Assembly: GCA_903851365.1 (NCBI GenBank)
Contig: CAINOB010000062.1
Coordinates: 1-64,000, forward strand
Source of the DNA: an uncultured Bacteroidota bacterium
GTDB taxonomy: Bacteria > Bacteroidota > Bacteroidia > Bacteroidales > UBA12481
Direction: 5' to 3'
Length of the DNA stretch: 64,000 nucleotides
Part shown: piece by piece, positions 87 through 32,240 of the stretch
Layout: each line of letters opens with the position of its first letter
Position numbering within the stretch: position 1 is the first letter of the stretch
The notes under the pieces: model-generated
The model's input: only the letters and a program-made list of their open reading frames with translations
What the model was told of the DNA's origin: nothing
Databases searched by the model: none
Translations under genes and position numbers: made by a program

Positions 87-1072
87 ATAGAGCACCCAGC
101 TCTCCCTTATTCCTTACCTCCTCCGTCCTTAACCCTTTCCTTTCTGCCCTCCTGCCCTTTTGCCTTCTTGCCCTGCTTATGGCTCTCCCGACAAAAGCAT
201 CCGCTCAGTACCAAATCTCCCAGGAGCCAAAAGCCGTCATCGAAGTCTTCGAAGCCATGTATCGGTACAACCTGCCCGAAGCAGATTCGAAACTCAAGGC
301 CCTTAACGCAACAAATATCGATCAGACCTAGATCGACCTGGCACATGTCAACCTCCTGTGGTGGTGGCTGATATCTGGCGATGAATCACGCGATTATGAT
401 AACCTCATGGCAGTGATCCTGAACAGGGTCATCAACCGTTTCTCTTATCTTCCAGTCGATAAAATGAAGGACGAGGAGGTTTTTACCATGATCCACTGCT
501 ATGCCTATCTCACCAGGGTGGATATCTATCAGGAAAGATATTTTAAGGGAATAGTCAACCTGCGTCATACCCTCGACTACCTGGAAATTGCTCTAAAGAA
601 TACGGATCGATACGACAAATTCATGATGGTGAGCGGGTTATACAATTATTTTGCTGCCGTTACCCTGATAAAATATCCTGTTTTCACTCCATTTTTCTCC
701 ATTGCCCCAAAGTGCAACCGCGAACTGGGATTCAACCTGCTCAACAAATGTTCCCTGATGGATAATGTGCTCATAAAGAACGAGTCGCTCTATTATCTGA
801 TGAAGATAAACTACCAGCTCGAAGAGAATTACGATAAAGCTTTGTCGATTGCCGATCAGCTTCTGGTGCGCTACCCGAATAACATGATTTACCATTTTCA
901 CCGTTTCATGATACTGATCGAAGCCGGCCGCCGTCAGCAGGCCCTCGAGCAATATACCACCATGCTGGGAGTTTCCATTAAAGCCCCGGGACTTAACCCT
1001 TTACAGCGGAATCATCTCGTTGATCTGGCAAAGAAAAGATTGCAGAAAGAAAAAATTAATATCGCAATCTGA
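74..1072 (+). pseudogene. Secreted TPR-like protein, interrupted by an in-frame TAG
   Basis: One reading frame runs from the ATG at 74 to the stop at 1070-1072 with a single TAG at 329-331. Both sides read as one protein. The N-terminal part has a signal peptide (hydrophobic stretch about residues 15-37, then KASAQ) and the segment YQISQEPKAVIEVFEAMYRY. After the TAG come helical repeats, including ALSIADQLLVRYPNN and LEQYTTMLG, which look TPR-like. The full product would be about 332 aa. The start is uncertain: ATGs at 20 and 74 are in frame, and both lie in the upstream repeat. The hydrophobic core of the signal peptide is encoded by a pyrimidine-rich low-complexity repeat. A genuine nonsense mutation, stop readthrough or a sequencing error (CAG to TAG) are all possible. 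If only the 3' part is expressed, the ATG at 407 could start a 221-aa protein. No precise family recognised. Confidence 0.65.
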
Positions 1073-19021: not shown

Positions 19022-19134
19022 TTCGGCTTCGCCTCACTAAAAGGTCGCTTCGCTCCTAATAGGCTCCCTGCGGTCGCAAAGAGGTTCGCCTTTGGCTCAC
19101 TAATGGGCTCCCTTCGGTCGCTAATTTGCGCTGC
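19022..19134. repeat. Degenerate ~21-bp short-unit repeat array
   Basis: About five imperfect units end in CTAA/TAAT and carry GGCTC or GGTCGC cores with internal TTCG: GGCTTCGCCTCACTAA, GGTCGCTTCGCTCCTAAT, GGCTCCCTGCGGTCGCAAA, GGTTCGCCTTTGGCTCACTAA, GGCTCCCTTCGGTCGCTAAT. Most units can fold as a small hairpin. The array fills the spacer between ridA and lepA and codes for nothing convincing. Confidence 0.65.
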
Positions 19135-19182: not shown

Positions 19183-19230
19183 GCCTTCCGTCTTCCGATC
19201 TTTCTTCCGTCTCGCGGTCTTCTTCTTCGT
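19183..19230. repeat. Pyrimidine-rich CTTCCGTCT low-complexity repeat
   Basis: A run of CTTCC/GTCTT units lies just downstream of ridA (reverse strand). The 19 bases at 19203-19221 (TCTTCCGTCTCGCGGTCTT) match, with one mismatch, the reverse complement of 31653-31671 inside queG. The same low-complexity family therefore occurs in a spacer and in a coding region. Confidence 0.7.
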
Positions 19231-19231
19231 C

Positions 19232-19675
19232 CTAGTGCTTCGTTGCTATGCCCGAAATCTCCACCTCGGCATCCTTTGGCAGTCGACCTATCTGGATAGC
19301 AGCACGCGCAGGAAATTTCTTGTTCTTGAAAAACGTGGCGTAAGCATCGTTGATGGCTTTATAATTATCCATATTGGTCATATAGATATTTACCATCACC
19401 AGGTCTTCATAATCCAGATTGTTTTGTTTGAGAAGTACACCGATATTTTTCATGCACTGCTCAGTTTCCTTGGTAATATCTCCGGTAATTAAAGCGCTGG
19501 TCTCCGGCACAATAGGTATCTGTCCCGAAATGTAAAGAGTACCATTTGCCATAACTGCTGCGGTATAGGGTGCAATCGGTTTAGGAGCAACAGTTTGGGC
19601 CTCCATGGAATATACTCCGACGAGCAATACGAAAAAAGTAAAAAGAATTGATTTCATGGTTGTTAGATATTTCAT
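19232..19675 (-). CDS. RidA-family protein with signal peptide
   Basis: 147 aa. Residues 1-27 form a signal peptide (MKSILFTFFVLLVGVYSMEAQ from the second Met). The rest is a complete Rid/YjgF domain: PYTAAVMANGTLYISGQIP, NIGVLLKQNNLDYEDLVMVNIYMTNM, and the signature FPARAAIQIGRLPKDAEVEISGIA with the substrate-binding Arg. Cytoplasmic RidA hydrolyses reactive enamine/imine intermediates; an exported version must have another site of action. The first ATG overlaps the TGA of the upstream T9SS gene (ATGA), implying translational coupling. The internal Met at residue 7 could be the true start. Confidence 0.88.
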   Translation of the reverse strand: MKYLTTMKSILFTFFVLLVGVYSMEAQTVAPKPIAPYTAAVMANGTLYISGQIPIVPETSALITGDITKETEQCMKNIGVLLKQNNLDYEDLVMVNIYMTNMDNYKAINDAYATFFKNKKFPARAAIQIGRLPKDAEVEISGIATKH

Positions 19676-22425: not shown

Positions 22426-22479
22426 TCATAATATTTTCCTGACAATGTATCCATTGAAAAAAGTTGCCAATATAAAAGC

Positions 22480-22606
22480 AAGAGCTTCCAACTTAAGCAG
22501 GTGGCAGGCATAAAACAAGAGCTGCCAACTTAAGCAGGAGGCAGGCATAAAACAAGAGCTGCCAACTTAAGCAGGTGGCAGGCATAAAACAAGAGCTGCC
22601 AACTTT
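22480..22606. repeat. 37-bp tandem repeat, three copies plus a partial
   Basis: Units start with AAGAGC at 22480, 22517, 22554 and 22591. Each reads AAGAGCTGCCAACTTAAGCA followed by GGTGGCAGGCATAAAAC, with one or two differences between copies. The fourth unit is cut short and forms the left arm of the groEL terminator hairpin. Each unit carries the GAGCTGCCAACTT motif seen at 2214-2300 and 3770-3872. The array appears to have grown from one arm of that hairpin. It is not a CRISPR: there are no spacers. Confidence 0.85.
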
Positions 22607-29591: not shown

Positions 29592-31248
29592 ATTTCAACC
29601 GGTCAGATTGGATGGTTAAAATTACCAAACCTGAGTTATTAGCTGGCAAGGTAAGCTTATTGTTTCCCATGGATATCTCGAGTCCTTGTTGCTGATATAT
29701 CACCCGGCCCAACCTATCGATGAGCGAAAGGTTGACTTTCATCCCACGGCTGCCAACAACATTAACAATCAGCTGCCTGGACGGGTCAACGGTCAGGGAT
29801 CCGAGAGTAAAATCAGCAACTTCCTCAACATATCCAACGGTCTGCGATGGTGAATATTCGTAAGCCCCAACATCAAACACTCCCGCAACAGGCCGTGCCC
29901 GGTCATCCAGATCCATTATAACACCCTCATCAATAAGTGATTTACCCGAATTTACCATGGGTGATATCAACTGCAACCTGAAATTATTACCTGCCACATT
30001 GACAAACCTGGCTGTATCCAGTGATCGGCCAAAATAATTATTCGACGCAACGATATTTCCAAAATGTCCATCATCATATACATAGGAGTCCTTCCCTTCC
30101 CGGTCAGTATTGTCATGTTCATAAACATCAAAGGCCCCCGGGTCGATAACGGAATTATTAAAAATACGGACAGGAAAATGAACTGAATTCACGATCCTGA
30201 TGCCATCGGATTTTGGTTGAATTATGGTATTGTTAAAAATTCCATCGTAAGACTGATCATCAAACGTTTTATCAGCTACATAAATTCCGTATTCACGCAA
30301 CGCCACACTATCGGGATAATAACGTTTTGCAGGCCTGATAATCAGATTATTGAATATTTTGGTTCCACCTTTACCCAGCACCACGATTCCGGTGGTATAA
30401 GGATCGATGATCTTATTATTATAGCACTTTGCCTGAGTACCGCCGCCAATCATAATTCCGCTCATCTGGCTGGTAACCATCCGATAACTGCAATCTGTCA
30501 GCGTATTATGATGGATTTCACAATCGCTGGTCGCGGATGAAACCTGGATGCCATCGTAGCCTGTACTATCGATCCGGTTGTTATAGATGCGGGTTCCGAC
30601 CAGTACGGGCCCCAGCACCTTCTTTTTGCATGGGCTCAGGTAAACAGAATCATAAGAAGTATAACCGATGTACAAGCCTTCCCCGCCAACGTGATGAACA
30701 TAGCAGTCATGGATCAGTGTATTATACTGAGTAAAAGCACCTCGCCAGGTACTTATATCATCGCATTCCGGCTCCGTTCTGGCCTGGATCCCGGCAAAGC
30801 CTACATGGGCAACTTCGCAGTTTTCTATTTCCAGATCAGTGCATTTTTCACCTGCCGCAATGCCAAAACCATCAGGATTGTTCACGCGCCTGATATAAAT
30901 GCCATATTTCCCAAATGATCCGGATATACCGGTCAACTTAAAAAAGGAACAATTGCTGAATACGAGACCGTAATTATGATCCGTATCAAAGATCACCTGT
31001 CCGTTGAGATTGGCAAATACGATCGGCTTACCAGGCAGACCATGGAAATTAGCGATCTTAAGAAAACCCCTGGTCCCGGATTGCAACCATACGGTATCGC
31101 CCGGACTCATGTTAACAAACGGGTAGTCGCTAGCGGCAACATAATCATCATTCAATGGTATAATTAATGCCTGCGCAGTCACCTGCTGCCGGAAAACCAG
31201 CGAAAGGGCTATCAGGATAACAAGTATTCTTAAATGTAAAAATTTCAT
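29566..31248 (-). CDS. Secreted right-handed parallel beta-helix protein with T9SS tail
   Basis: 560 aa. Signal peptide at 1-25 (LVILIALSLVFRQQVTAQ). Residues about 90-400 hold the short strands and N/D/G turns of a parallel beta-helix (for example HDCYVHHVGGEGLYIGYTS and IYNNRIDSTGYDGIQVSS), as in pectate-lyase-like surface proteins. The last 75 or so residues (LTVDPSRQLIVNVVGSRGMKV to LKYARKIILL) look like a T9SS sorting domain. Function unknown; polysaccharide binding or cleavage is plausible. Its ATG shares one base with the queG stop (TAATG). A surface protein embedded in the Fe-S operon is unexpected. Confidence 0.82.
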   Translation of the reverse strand: MKFLHLRILVILIALSLVFRQQVTAQALIIPLNDDYVAASDYPFVNMSPGDTVWLQSGTRGFLKIANFHGLPGKPIVFANLNGQVIFDTDHNYGLVFSNCSFFKLTGISGSFGKYGIYIRRVNNPDGFGIAAGEKCTDLEIENCEVAHVGFAGIQARTEPECDDISTWRGAFTQYNTLIHDCYVHHVGGEGLYIGYTSYDSVYLSPCKKKVLGPVLVGTRIYNNRIDSTGYDGIQVSSATSDCEIHHNTLTDCSYRMVTSQMSGIMIGGGTQAKCYNNKIIDPYTTGIVVLGKGGTKIFNNLIIRPAKRYYPDSVALREYGIYVADKTFDDQSYDGIFNNTIIQPKSDGIRIVNSVHFPVRIFNNSVIDPGAFDVYEHDNTDREGKDSYVYDDGHFGNIVASNNYFGRSLDTARFVNVAGNNFRLQLISPMVNSGKSLIDEGVIMDLDDRARPVAGVFDVGAYEYSPSQTVGYVEEVADFTLGSLTVDPSRQLIVNVVGSRGMKVNLSLIDRLGRVIYQQQGLEISMGNNKLTLPANNSGLVILTIQSDRLKYARKIILL

Positions 31249-32240
31249 TATTCGGATTTTCGGTTCAAAAATGCAAAGTTCCGCAAAATTCCAGTCCTTC
31301 CTGTACGTTTAACGGGCGTTCCATCAAATAATTGCATAAAAGTCGCCTCATCCATGCCCTCCATCGTTCGGCCTGTGATTTCCATTAACCCGGATCTCGG
31401 TGCAAGTTCCGGGATCATTGATTGAAAGGGTTTGCTGTTCCATGGACAAACATCCTGGCAAATATCACAACCGAAAACCCAATCGCTCCATTTGCCATGA
31501 AATTCTTCAGGGATATCCCCTTTATGTTCGATCGTAAGGTAGGAAATGCATTTGCGGGGGTCCATCGATCCGTCTCCGGCAAGGGCCCCGGTCGGACAGG
31601 AATCAATACAGCGGGTGCAGGTGCCACAATGAGGAGGAAGAAGATCGGAAGAAAGACCGGGAGACGGAAGACGGGAAGATGAAGAAGACGGAAGACCTGA
31701 AGACAAAAGAGTGGAGAGATCGAGGTCGGTAATTATTTCGGTGAGGAAAAAATAGGAACCTTGTTTTGGGATAATCAGGCATCCATTTTTGCCAATCCAG
31801 CCCAAACCGGATCGTCGCGCCCATTCACGTTCGAAAACAGGGGCTGAATCTGTAAAAACCCGTCCTTTTGCAGGCCCAATCTCCTTATTAATCCAATCCA
31901 GCAGCTCATGTCCCCGGGCTCTTAAAATTTCGTGATAATCATTGCCAAGTGCATACCTGCTGATTCGCGGATTGCCTGCAACATGCTCATCAAGTGGATA
32001 ATAATAGGGTGCAGCGAGCGAAATGACAGTCTTCGCTCCTTCAATCAGCTTGCCCGGATCAAGGCGCAGATCAACATTTCTTTCCAGATATCCCATCTCC
32101 CCGGCTTTCCCTGAATCGATCCACTCCAGGAAAGTGGGACGGAGATCATCGAGTTGATCAGCCGGAGCAAAACTGCAGGCCGAAAAGCCTGACTCAAAAG
32201 CTTTTTGCCTAAAGGAATCCCAATTCAAGCTTGGCTTCAT
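31248..32240 (-). CDS. queG: Epoxyqueuosine reductase
   Basis: 330 aa; reduces epoxyqueuosine to queuosine in tRNA with cobalamin and two [4Fe-4S] clusters. Cluster motifs CGTCTRCIDSCPTG (from residue 205) and CDICQDVCPWN are intact, and the substrate region FEREWARRSGLGWIGKNGCLI is present. Residues about 176-201 are a Ser/Pro/Leu-rich insert (encoded by about 31638-31715) made of CTTCCGTCT low-complexity repeat sequence, right before the first cluster motif. The insert stays in frame, so the enzyme may still work. The start overlaps sufT by 32 bases. Confidence 0.92.
   Translation of the reverse strand: MKPSLNWDSFRQKAFESGFSACSFAPADQLDDLRPTFLEWIDSGKAGEMGYLERNVDLRLDPGKLIEGAKTVISLAAPYYYPLDEHVAGNPRISRYALGNDYHEILRARGHELLDWINKEIGPAKGRVFTDSAPVFEREWARRSGLGWIGKNGCLIIPKQGSYFFLTEIITDLDLSTLLSSGLPSSSSSRLPSPGLSSDLLPPHCGTCTRCIDSCPTGALAGDGSMDPRKCISYLTIEHKGDIPEEFHGKWSDWVFGCDICQDVCPWNSKPFQSMIPELAPRSGLMEITGRTMEGMDEATFMQLFDGTPVKRTGRTGILRNFAFLNRKSE
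31638..31715. repeat. Low-complexity repeat inserted in queG
   Basis: About 78 bases of purine-rich sequence on the forward strand (GGAAGA, GACGG units), reading CTTCC/GTCTT on the coding strand. It shares a 19-base string with one mismatch with the ridA-lepA spacer (19203-19221). It encodes about 26 residues rich in Ser, Pro and Leu that are not part of the normal QueG fold. Confidence 0.7.

Follow-up and report, generated by a model that had tools for sequence, protein, structure and literature searches.

A degenerate heptamer array read in frame in queG of an uncultured Bacteroidota bacterium, and its resemblance to a genome-wide class of 7- and 8-nucleotide arrays

The window, a 64,000-nucleotide stretch of the genome of an uncultured Bacteroidota bacterium, carries the gene for epoxyqueuosine reductase, queG, on its minus strand (31248-32240). 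The product has 330 amino acids, with no internal stop codon, and is recognised by the NCBIfam equivalog TIGR00276 (294.5 bits, cut-off 200) and by the Pfam domains Fer4_16 and QueG_DUF1730. Residues 176-201 (STLLSSGLPSSSSSRLPSPGLSSDLL), encoded by positions 31638-31715 of the minus strand, form a Ser/Pro/Leu stretch that a previous sequence-only reading had placed just before the first Fe-S motif. Indeed, the first cysteine of that motif is C205. The open reading frame is intact across the segment, which confirms that a low-complexity DNA repeat is read in frame in this gene.

Read in the queG sense, the segment is rich in C and T and made up of CTTCCGT-like words; the plus strand, antisense to the gene, is the one rich in purines and G. 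Tandem Repeats Finder reports AAGACGG on the plus strand between 31653 and 31696, with a period of 7, 5.7 copies, 72% matches and 17% indels. The repetitive words had been rightly seen in the sequence-only reading, but the unit that it gave, CTTCCGTCT, is better replaced by CTTCCGT-like 7-mers with irregular spacers. Five of the six reading frames are open in this DNA, so that DNA of this kind can enter a gene without bringing in a stop codon. A search for inverted repeats between 31600 and 31760 found none, in keeping with the statement that the repeat is not palindromic. The QueG insert, the sole array copy that was folded, has no RNA structure beyond that of shuffled sequences (z +0.38), and a search of the window against Rfam at gathering thresholds returned one tRNA and nothing at the arrays. 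The QueG insert is a degenerate heptamer array and not a palindromic mobile element.

Further copies of the repeat are present elsewhere in the genome. With the insert as query, blastn returned 43 matches at E <= 10, the insert included, the best non-self match having an E value of 3.5e-9. The string CTTCCGTCTTCC occurs 19 times in the genome, compared with five occurrences of its reversed control. In the window, an array of similar words (19185-19231, minus strand) lies directly 3' of a putative ridA-like gene (19232-19675, minus strand, 147 amino acids; named ridA in the sequence-only reading), whose stop codon adjoins the array. A 19-mer of this spacer (19203-19221) had been reported to match the queG insert. 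It does recur at 31653-31671 of the minus strand with one mismatch, and in none of 100 dinucleotide shuffles, while a different choice of 19-mer in this comparison gives two mismatches. Near the ridA array, positions 19037-19125 hold low-complexity DNA of period 21 (CTAATAGGCTCCCTTCGGTCG); a similar sequence follows ridA in a sister species (G001) and another is found at locus L126 (5335-5414). An octamer array of the CTGCCCTC type (144-172, plus strand) codes the hydrophobic N-terminal part of the ORF at 20-331, the hydrophobic stretch being followed by ASAQ.

The conserved residues of the enzyme are intact. In an alignment of 30 QueG sequences the eight cluster cysteines and D131 are invariant. 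The AlphaFold model has a mean pLDDT of 88.7, and its best match among solved structures is QueG 5d0b (TMq 0.82). The only segment of at least three residues with pLDDT below 50 is 183-200, within the insert, although few aligned rows cover these residues, which may partly account for the low score. Since low confidence is confined to the insert in an otherwise confident model, the insert would most likely form a disordered loop ahead of the cluster domain, the outcome for which a structure prediction had been proposed as a check. The low model confidence also suggests that the insert is exposed at the surface. It is probably harmless, and its effect on the enzyme would be neutral or nearly so.

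Of the 99 genomes searched, 86 have QueG-like matches, the own genome counted. The linker was examined in 110 loci, 30 from this search (the matches for which a locus was available, the own genome included) and 80 from a second scan, the latter being relatives of 40-47% identity among which near records may be missing. Using a fixed anchor before the first cluster motif, it could be scored in 97 loci, the other 13 lacking the anchor. Its length is 38-40 amino acids in 94 of the 97. The only three longer linkers belong to the own genome (G000, 58 amino acids) and to the sister species G001 (52) and G006 (47). Conservation of the segment at the protein level across distant QueG proteins, one of two refuting conditions named in the earlier reading, is thereby rejected; the other, a genome with no further repeat copies, does not hold either. 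At the DNA level the segment between the anchors measures 186 nt in G000, 168 nt in G001 and 153 nt in G006, compared with 129 nt in four congeners (G003, G004, G005 and G007); G002 is also without the insert, according to the protein alignment. The net gains of 57, 39 and 24 nt are all in frame. The word "inserted" used earlier is correct in that extra DNA is present, but part of the array is a replacement: the segment is longer by 57 nt (19 amino acids) than in the four congeners, not by the 78 nt that the array spans.

The queG arrays of the three species consist of similar CTTCCGT-like words in different order. In an unrooted tree built from QueG together with the PglD-like and RidA-like proteins, with the array columns masked, the three species form one side of a split with a bootstrap value of 99. 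In a tree of QueG alone, the insert-bearing species are not resolved as one group (two changes; one change in 21% of bootstrap trees). The simplest history would be a single gain in the common ancestor of the three, followed by changes in length. In its behaviour the QueG insert resembles a simple-repeat array of heptamers with turnover at a fixed site, and not a discrete element copied into genes.

Arrays with 7- and 8-nt periods are common in this genome. The sample, 864 kb out of 5.23 Mb, consisted of the window and 40 stretches of 20 kb each; it was taken from six large contigs already known to hold repeat matches and hence is not a random draw. Self-comparison at fixed lags revealed 34 lag-7 and 17 lag-8 tracts. 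The same test gave no tracts at lags 4, 5, 10, 11 and 13, one to three at lags 6, 9, 12 and 15, and 17 at lag 14. The figure of 34 was obtained with the looser setting; with a stricter one, 22 lag-7 tracts are left, compared with none in shuffled sequence. The 51 tracts extrapolate to about 300 genome-wide, although neighbouring calls were left unmerged, so that some tracts share one compound array and are not fully independent.

Between them, the 51 tracts comprise 21 heptamer and 14 octamer units. Among the lag-7 units, 78 of 561 pairs lie within one change of each other, compared with a mean of 20.7 (maximum 35) in 60 letter shuffles; for the lag-8 units the figures are 24 of 136 pairs and a mean of 2.3 (maximum 5). 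Units more alike than shuffled ones are evidently drawn from shared families, unlike random local seeds, and purely local slippage of such seeds is therefore insufficient as an explanation. One family, that of GGCACAAGGCACAAGG (at most one mismatch), has 41 matches in the genome compared with one for its reversed control. The QueG and ridA-spacer arrays are too irregular for the lag-7 test and are absent from the 34 tracts; by their words, by Tandem Repeats Finder (for QueG) and by blastn they nevertheless resemble the class, to which they may be assigned.

The position of the arrays is far from random. Gene models were simple ORF picks (at least 120 or at least 150 amino acids), which makes coding fractions and the label "inside" rough; with them, nine of the 51 tracts fall inside ORFs of at least 120 amino acids and 42 outside. 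Of the latter, 26 have a stop codon no more than 30 nt away, compared with 18.7% expected for random placement (p 8e-10). The nearest gene end is a 3' end for 30 of the 42, at a median distance of 0.5 nt, and 25 of these 30 are G-rich on the sense strand. In these 30 tracts the G-rich strand tracks the gene strand (14 and 2 against 3 and 11; Fisher p 6e-4). The QueG array, G-rich on the antisense strand, is an exception to this orientation. Seen from the side of the genes, 533 of at least 200 amino acids show a 7- or 8-nt tract at 41 3' ends, at 23 5' ends and in one mid-gene window.

The arrays at stop codons are both retained and replaced between species. Comparison with the sister species G006 started from 27 array-bearing stop sites. 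Three of these lacked a locus and one was a paralogue, which leaves 23 orthologous sites. G006 has a 7- or 8-nt tract at 14 of them, of the same unit length in all 14, sites 10 and 11 being one array viewed from two genes; the base rate for comparison, 41 of 533 3' ends, is from G000 and not from G006. The other nine fall below the threshold, sites 1, 7, 16 and 23 by a single match. Site 19 has a lag-6 tract in G006, site 26 has no 7- or 8-nt tract, and sites 3, 14 and 21 appear empty. Clearly different heptamers adjoin the stop codon in G006 at sites 6, 22 and 25. At site 20 the type is kept at the stop codon with a different array behind it, and at site 15 the octamer is inverted. Of eight loci with the ridA-like gene, those of G000 and G001 were compared at this point: the array 3' of the gene is of the GACGGAA type in G000 and of the GTGACGG type in G001, each beginning at the stop codon.

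Arrays also recur inside other proteins. A hand-made list of 53 loci was assembled from the 30 of the 43 blastn matches for which a locus was available, six more from the CTTCCGTCTTCC search and 17 merged from the GGCACAAGGCACAAGG search (11 of its 41 matches being without a locus). Twenty-six of the 53 lie in ORFs of at least 150 amino acids (19 internal, four C-terminal and three N-terminal) and 27 do not. Among the 26, L348 and L349 are one gene, a few may be chance or misstarted ORFs (e.g. L031 and L033), and "internal" covers N-terminal places where the ORF runs off the locus. The earlier suggestion of a repeat family in coding sequence is borne out to the extent that dispersed repeat DNA does occur in frame in genes.

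In several proteins the array at the same linker differs between species. A GH106 protein has an insert of the AAGGCAG/AAGGCAC type in G000; at this linker G006 has a long array of the KAQGASEG type, G007 has one of the TEDGRK type, and G002 has almost nothing. In a UvrA-family ATPase the corresponding residues are TEDGRR-like in G000, TADWVLQ in G001 and TADWELK in G006. A putative protease is longer by seven residues (three heptamers) in G001; the linker of a glycoside phosphorylase has PDTRYPI-type repeats, more of them in G006; repeats of the KKTEDLK type are present in a Big_5 protein of G001 and absent in G004; and the array at one linker of a TIM barrel protein varies between species. 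In the PglD-like protein, GGTATCG-type DNA fills a linker with no change in length relative to G004 and G005. An O-antigen ligase segment is nearly alike in G000, G001, G004 and G006. A FecR protein contains TSSGLPSS, coded by words as in the QueG array, and arrays are also carried by a helicase with a TRCF domain (Mfd-type) and, near the C-terminus, by TrpA. Antisense AAGGCAC arrays would encode LVPCALCL-like apparent signal peptides in a patatin-like protein, a tricorn-like protein, an M14 peptidase and one more protein. The places of such candidate peptides, recognised by eye in the sequence of antisense AAGGCAC or AAGGCAG arrays, are from 1439 in L335, from 458 in L349, up to 1550 in L359, up to 13357 in L125 (the M14 peptidase) and from 692 in L010. 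Surface linkers and apparent signal peptides are replaced by arrays in working proteins.

The class extends to relatives. The density of lag-7 tracts is 39 per Mb in G000 (34 tracts), 162 in G004 (13 in 80 kb), 138 in G007 (11) and 88 in G008 (7), a member of another genus of the same family; the relatives' stretches, 80 kb each, come from contigs with earlier matches. In G013 and G026, which belong to other families of the order, stretches of 80 kb each yielded no lag-7 tract. In two loci of G008 (L320 and L323) the arrays are of GGGAATC, the Xanthomonas heptamer. A 19-nt CTTCCGT pattern matches in eight of the 99 genomes, of which five belong to the own genus and three to other families. The reversed control has matches too, in seven genomes of the family (G000, G001, G003, G006, G007, G009 and G010), probably because other heptamer families resemble the pattern. 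Patchy CTTCCGT arrays in three other families of the order are found at L080, L081 and L087 (G047, G079 and G090).

Bacterial heptamer repeats have been noted since at least 2007 (cited in PMC4679880 and PMC4692102), and their role is still called unknown in PMC4692102. The GGGNATC repeats of Xanthomonas and Nostoc described in that paper are 7-nt units, dispersed and mostly extragenic, found on the coding strand at most 50 bp from stop codons, with a gene context shared and a length variable between species. They are quadruplex-forming repeats with a GGG in each unit. These heptameric long simple sequence repeats are matched here by GGGTATC arrays in G000 and GGGAATC arrays in G008. Unlike them, many heptamer and octamer families coexist here, sometimes swap at orthologous sites and recur in conserved proteins. 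Head-to-tail 7-nt units above chance, the mark of such repeats, are found in the class as a whole, and copy number varies between close relatives; the QueG copy, with its 5.7 imperfect copies, does not pass the lag test, and it has no GGGNATC unit, just two GGG runs on the G-rich strand.

TAACTGA heptamers, as described in PMC4679880, occur in Beggiatoaceae, Cyanobacteria and some Bacteroidetes, in the last beside other heptamer arrays, as direct repeats of which some lie inside ORFs. In the main genome of that paper they are mostly upstream of start codons, and the copies in ORFs are mostly at protein ends; in some Bacteroidetes they are near start codons in part of the cases. The arrays described here are likewise direct heptamer repeats in Bacteroidetes hosts, some within ORFs. 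However, TAACTGA repeats are of a single heptamer, which is absent from the 21 heptamer units found here, and tracts are at 41 of 533 3' ends versus 23 of 533 5' ends. Borg tandem repeats, according to PMC9879509, evolve fast, arise independently and give disordered protein segments in frame, the coding units being near-perfect and divisible by three. In contrast, the units here are degenerate, of 7-8 nt (QueG: period 7, 72% matches) and common to several chromosomal loci. A disordered segment may likewise be encoded at QueG residues 183-200, where pLDDT is below 50 with few rows aligned.

Rickettsia palindromic elements are portrayed in PMC2229807 and PMC3767692 as palindromic sequences with inverted repeats at their termini, about 100-150 bp long and with a family consensus. 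These and other small repeats that have become part of ORFs are there described in frame in exposed regions of conserved genes, the enzyme staying active in one cited case. The outcome is shared, in that repeat DNA is tolerated in frame in conserved enzymes, the exposure in QueG being suggested by the model. The resemblance to these elements proposed in the sequence-only reading does not extend to the kind of element. The QueG insert has neither palindrome nor terminal inverted repeats and no RNA structure beyond shuffles; it consists of 78 nt of degenerate tandem words, and the sister copies differ in sequence and length (net gains of 57, 39 and 24 nt in the three species). A Rickettsia-type identity is rejected on structure and length.

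We consider it probable that rapid turnover of 7- and 8-nt arrays overwrites weakly constrained DNA while selection keeps the frame, and that the QueG insert is one such array. In this bacterial family a small repertoire of heptamers and octamers (AAGACGG, GTGACGG, GGGTATC, AAGGCAC, AAGGCAG, TAATGTGC and their neighbours) would supply the arrays, which would arise, grow, shrink and replace each other wherever DNA is weakly constrained. The foremost sites are those directly 3' of stop codons, others being the surface linkers and the N-terminal signal regions of proteins. Replication slippage in a 7-8-nt register, together with recombination or conversion between arrays, may generate them, and purifying selection would preserve the frame and remove variants that damage the fold. 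Plain neutrality accounts least well for two observations, the orientation rule (25 of 30) and the constancy of the unit length.

In an alternative reading, the arrays function as nucleic acids at the 3' ends of genes, in message stability, termination or transcription-coupled structure, with period and orientation, but not sequence, under selection and the protein copies a spill-over. The placement at the stop codon (a median of 0.5 nt in the 30 tracts for which a 3' end is nearest), the strand bias (Fisher p 6e-4), the retention of an array with unchanged unit length at 14 of 23 orthologous 3' sites and the similar placement of the GGGNATC heptamers of Xanthomonas and Nostoc (PMC4692102) are all consistent with it. 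We regard it as a serious rival but an unlikely one: only 41 of 533 gene 3' ends carry an array, nine of the 23 sites are below threshold in the sister species with three apparently empty, the octamer of site 15 has the opposite orientation, and the QueG copy, the only one folded, has no RNA structure. The placement also fits arrays that begin at the first free base after a gene.

Less likely still is that selection favoured the QueG segment as a Ser/Pro/Leu-rich linker of benefit to the enzyme, its DNA repetition being a by-product. The three species do keep a similar composition (Ser, Leu and Pro) despite the change in length. However, the segment is missing from 94 of the 97 scorable loci, identical DNA words are found outside genes and in the unrelated FecR protein, and in other enzymes the array strand and the amino acids differ. 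A discrete mobile repeat of the Rickettsia palindromic kind, copied into queG, would account for in-frame residence in a conserved enzyme and for repeat copies in other genes, and a separate palindromic repeat does lie in frame in an IspG-like gene of G000 and in the PglD-like protein of G007. Yet the absence of inverted repeats and of a fixed length, together with sister copies that vary in unit order and length, makes such an origin highly improbable. An assembly or adapter artefact, suggested by an assembly in 130 contigs and by the plus-strand word GATCGGAAGA, which we take to resemble the start of a common sequencing adapter, is rejected with near certainty, as two other congeneric assemblies (G001 and G006) have an array of different sequence at this site of queG, and none of the three genes has lost its frame.

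The preferred reading, array turnover with selection for the frame, admits a stronger form that we put forward tentatively and regard as rather doubtful. The family might run an active, transcription-oriented generator of 7- and 8-nt arrays that continually rewrites unconstrained DNA, re-seeds a given site with different heptamers from a genome-wide pool and thereby supplies linkers and whole hydrophobic signal peptides, such as LVPCALCL from antisense AAGGCAC. If so, the generator would be a mutator that makes protein segments de novo, not mere tolerated junk. Repeats of 7 nt would be expected to break reading frames, yet they enter and persist in conserved enzymes and apparent export signals. 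The clade allows arrays, sister species and empty sites to be compared base by base, which makes it possible to test how heptamer arrays are generated and with what frequency simple repeats give rise to new protein segments. Heptamer repeats are already known; their in-frame, family-swapping behaviour looks new, no description of heptamer families swapping at orthologous coding sites having been found among the titles and abstracts of the open-access papers listed.

Two repeats of other kinds were observed. The separate palindromic repeat, of the CATCCCCGCGAAGGCGGGGAC type, is closer to the Rickettsia elements than the QueG insert is. It is apparently in frame at L031 (G000, in the putative IspG-like gene), L145 (G007, PglD-like) and L306 (G006, glycoside phosphorylase), with the peptides VVIPAKAG, PAFAGMTT and FPRKREP. 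Its core pattern occurs six times in 864 kb of G000 (7 per Mb) and eight times in 80 kb of G007 (100 per Mb). In the window itself, positions 22472-22605 hold a 37-nt tandem repeat of 3.6 copies with 95% matches.
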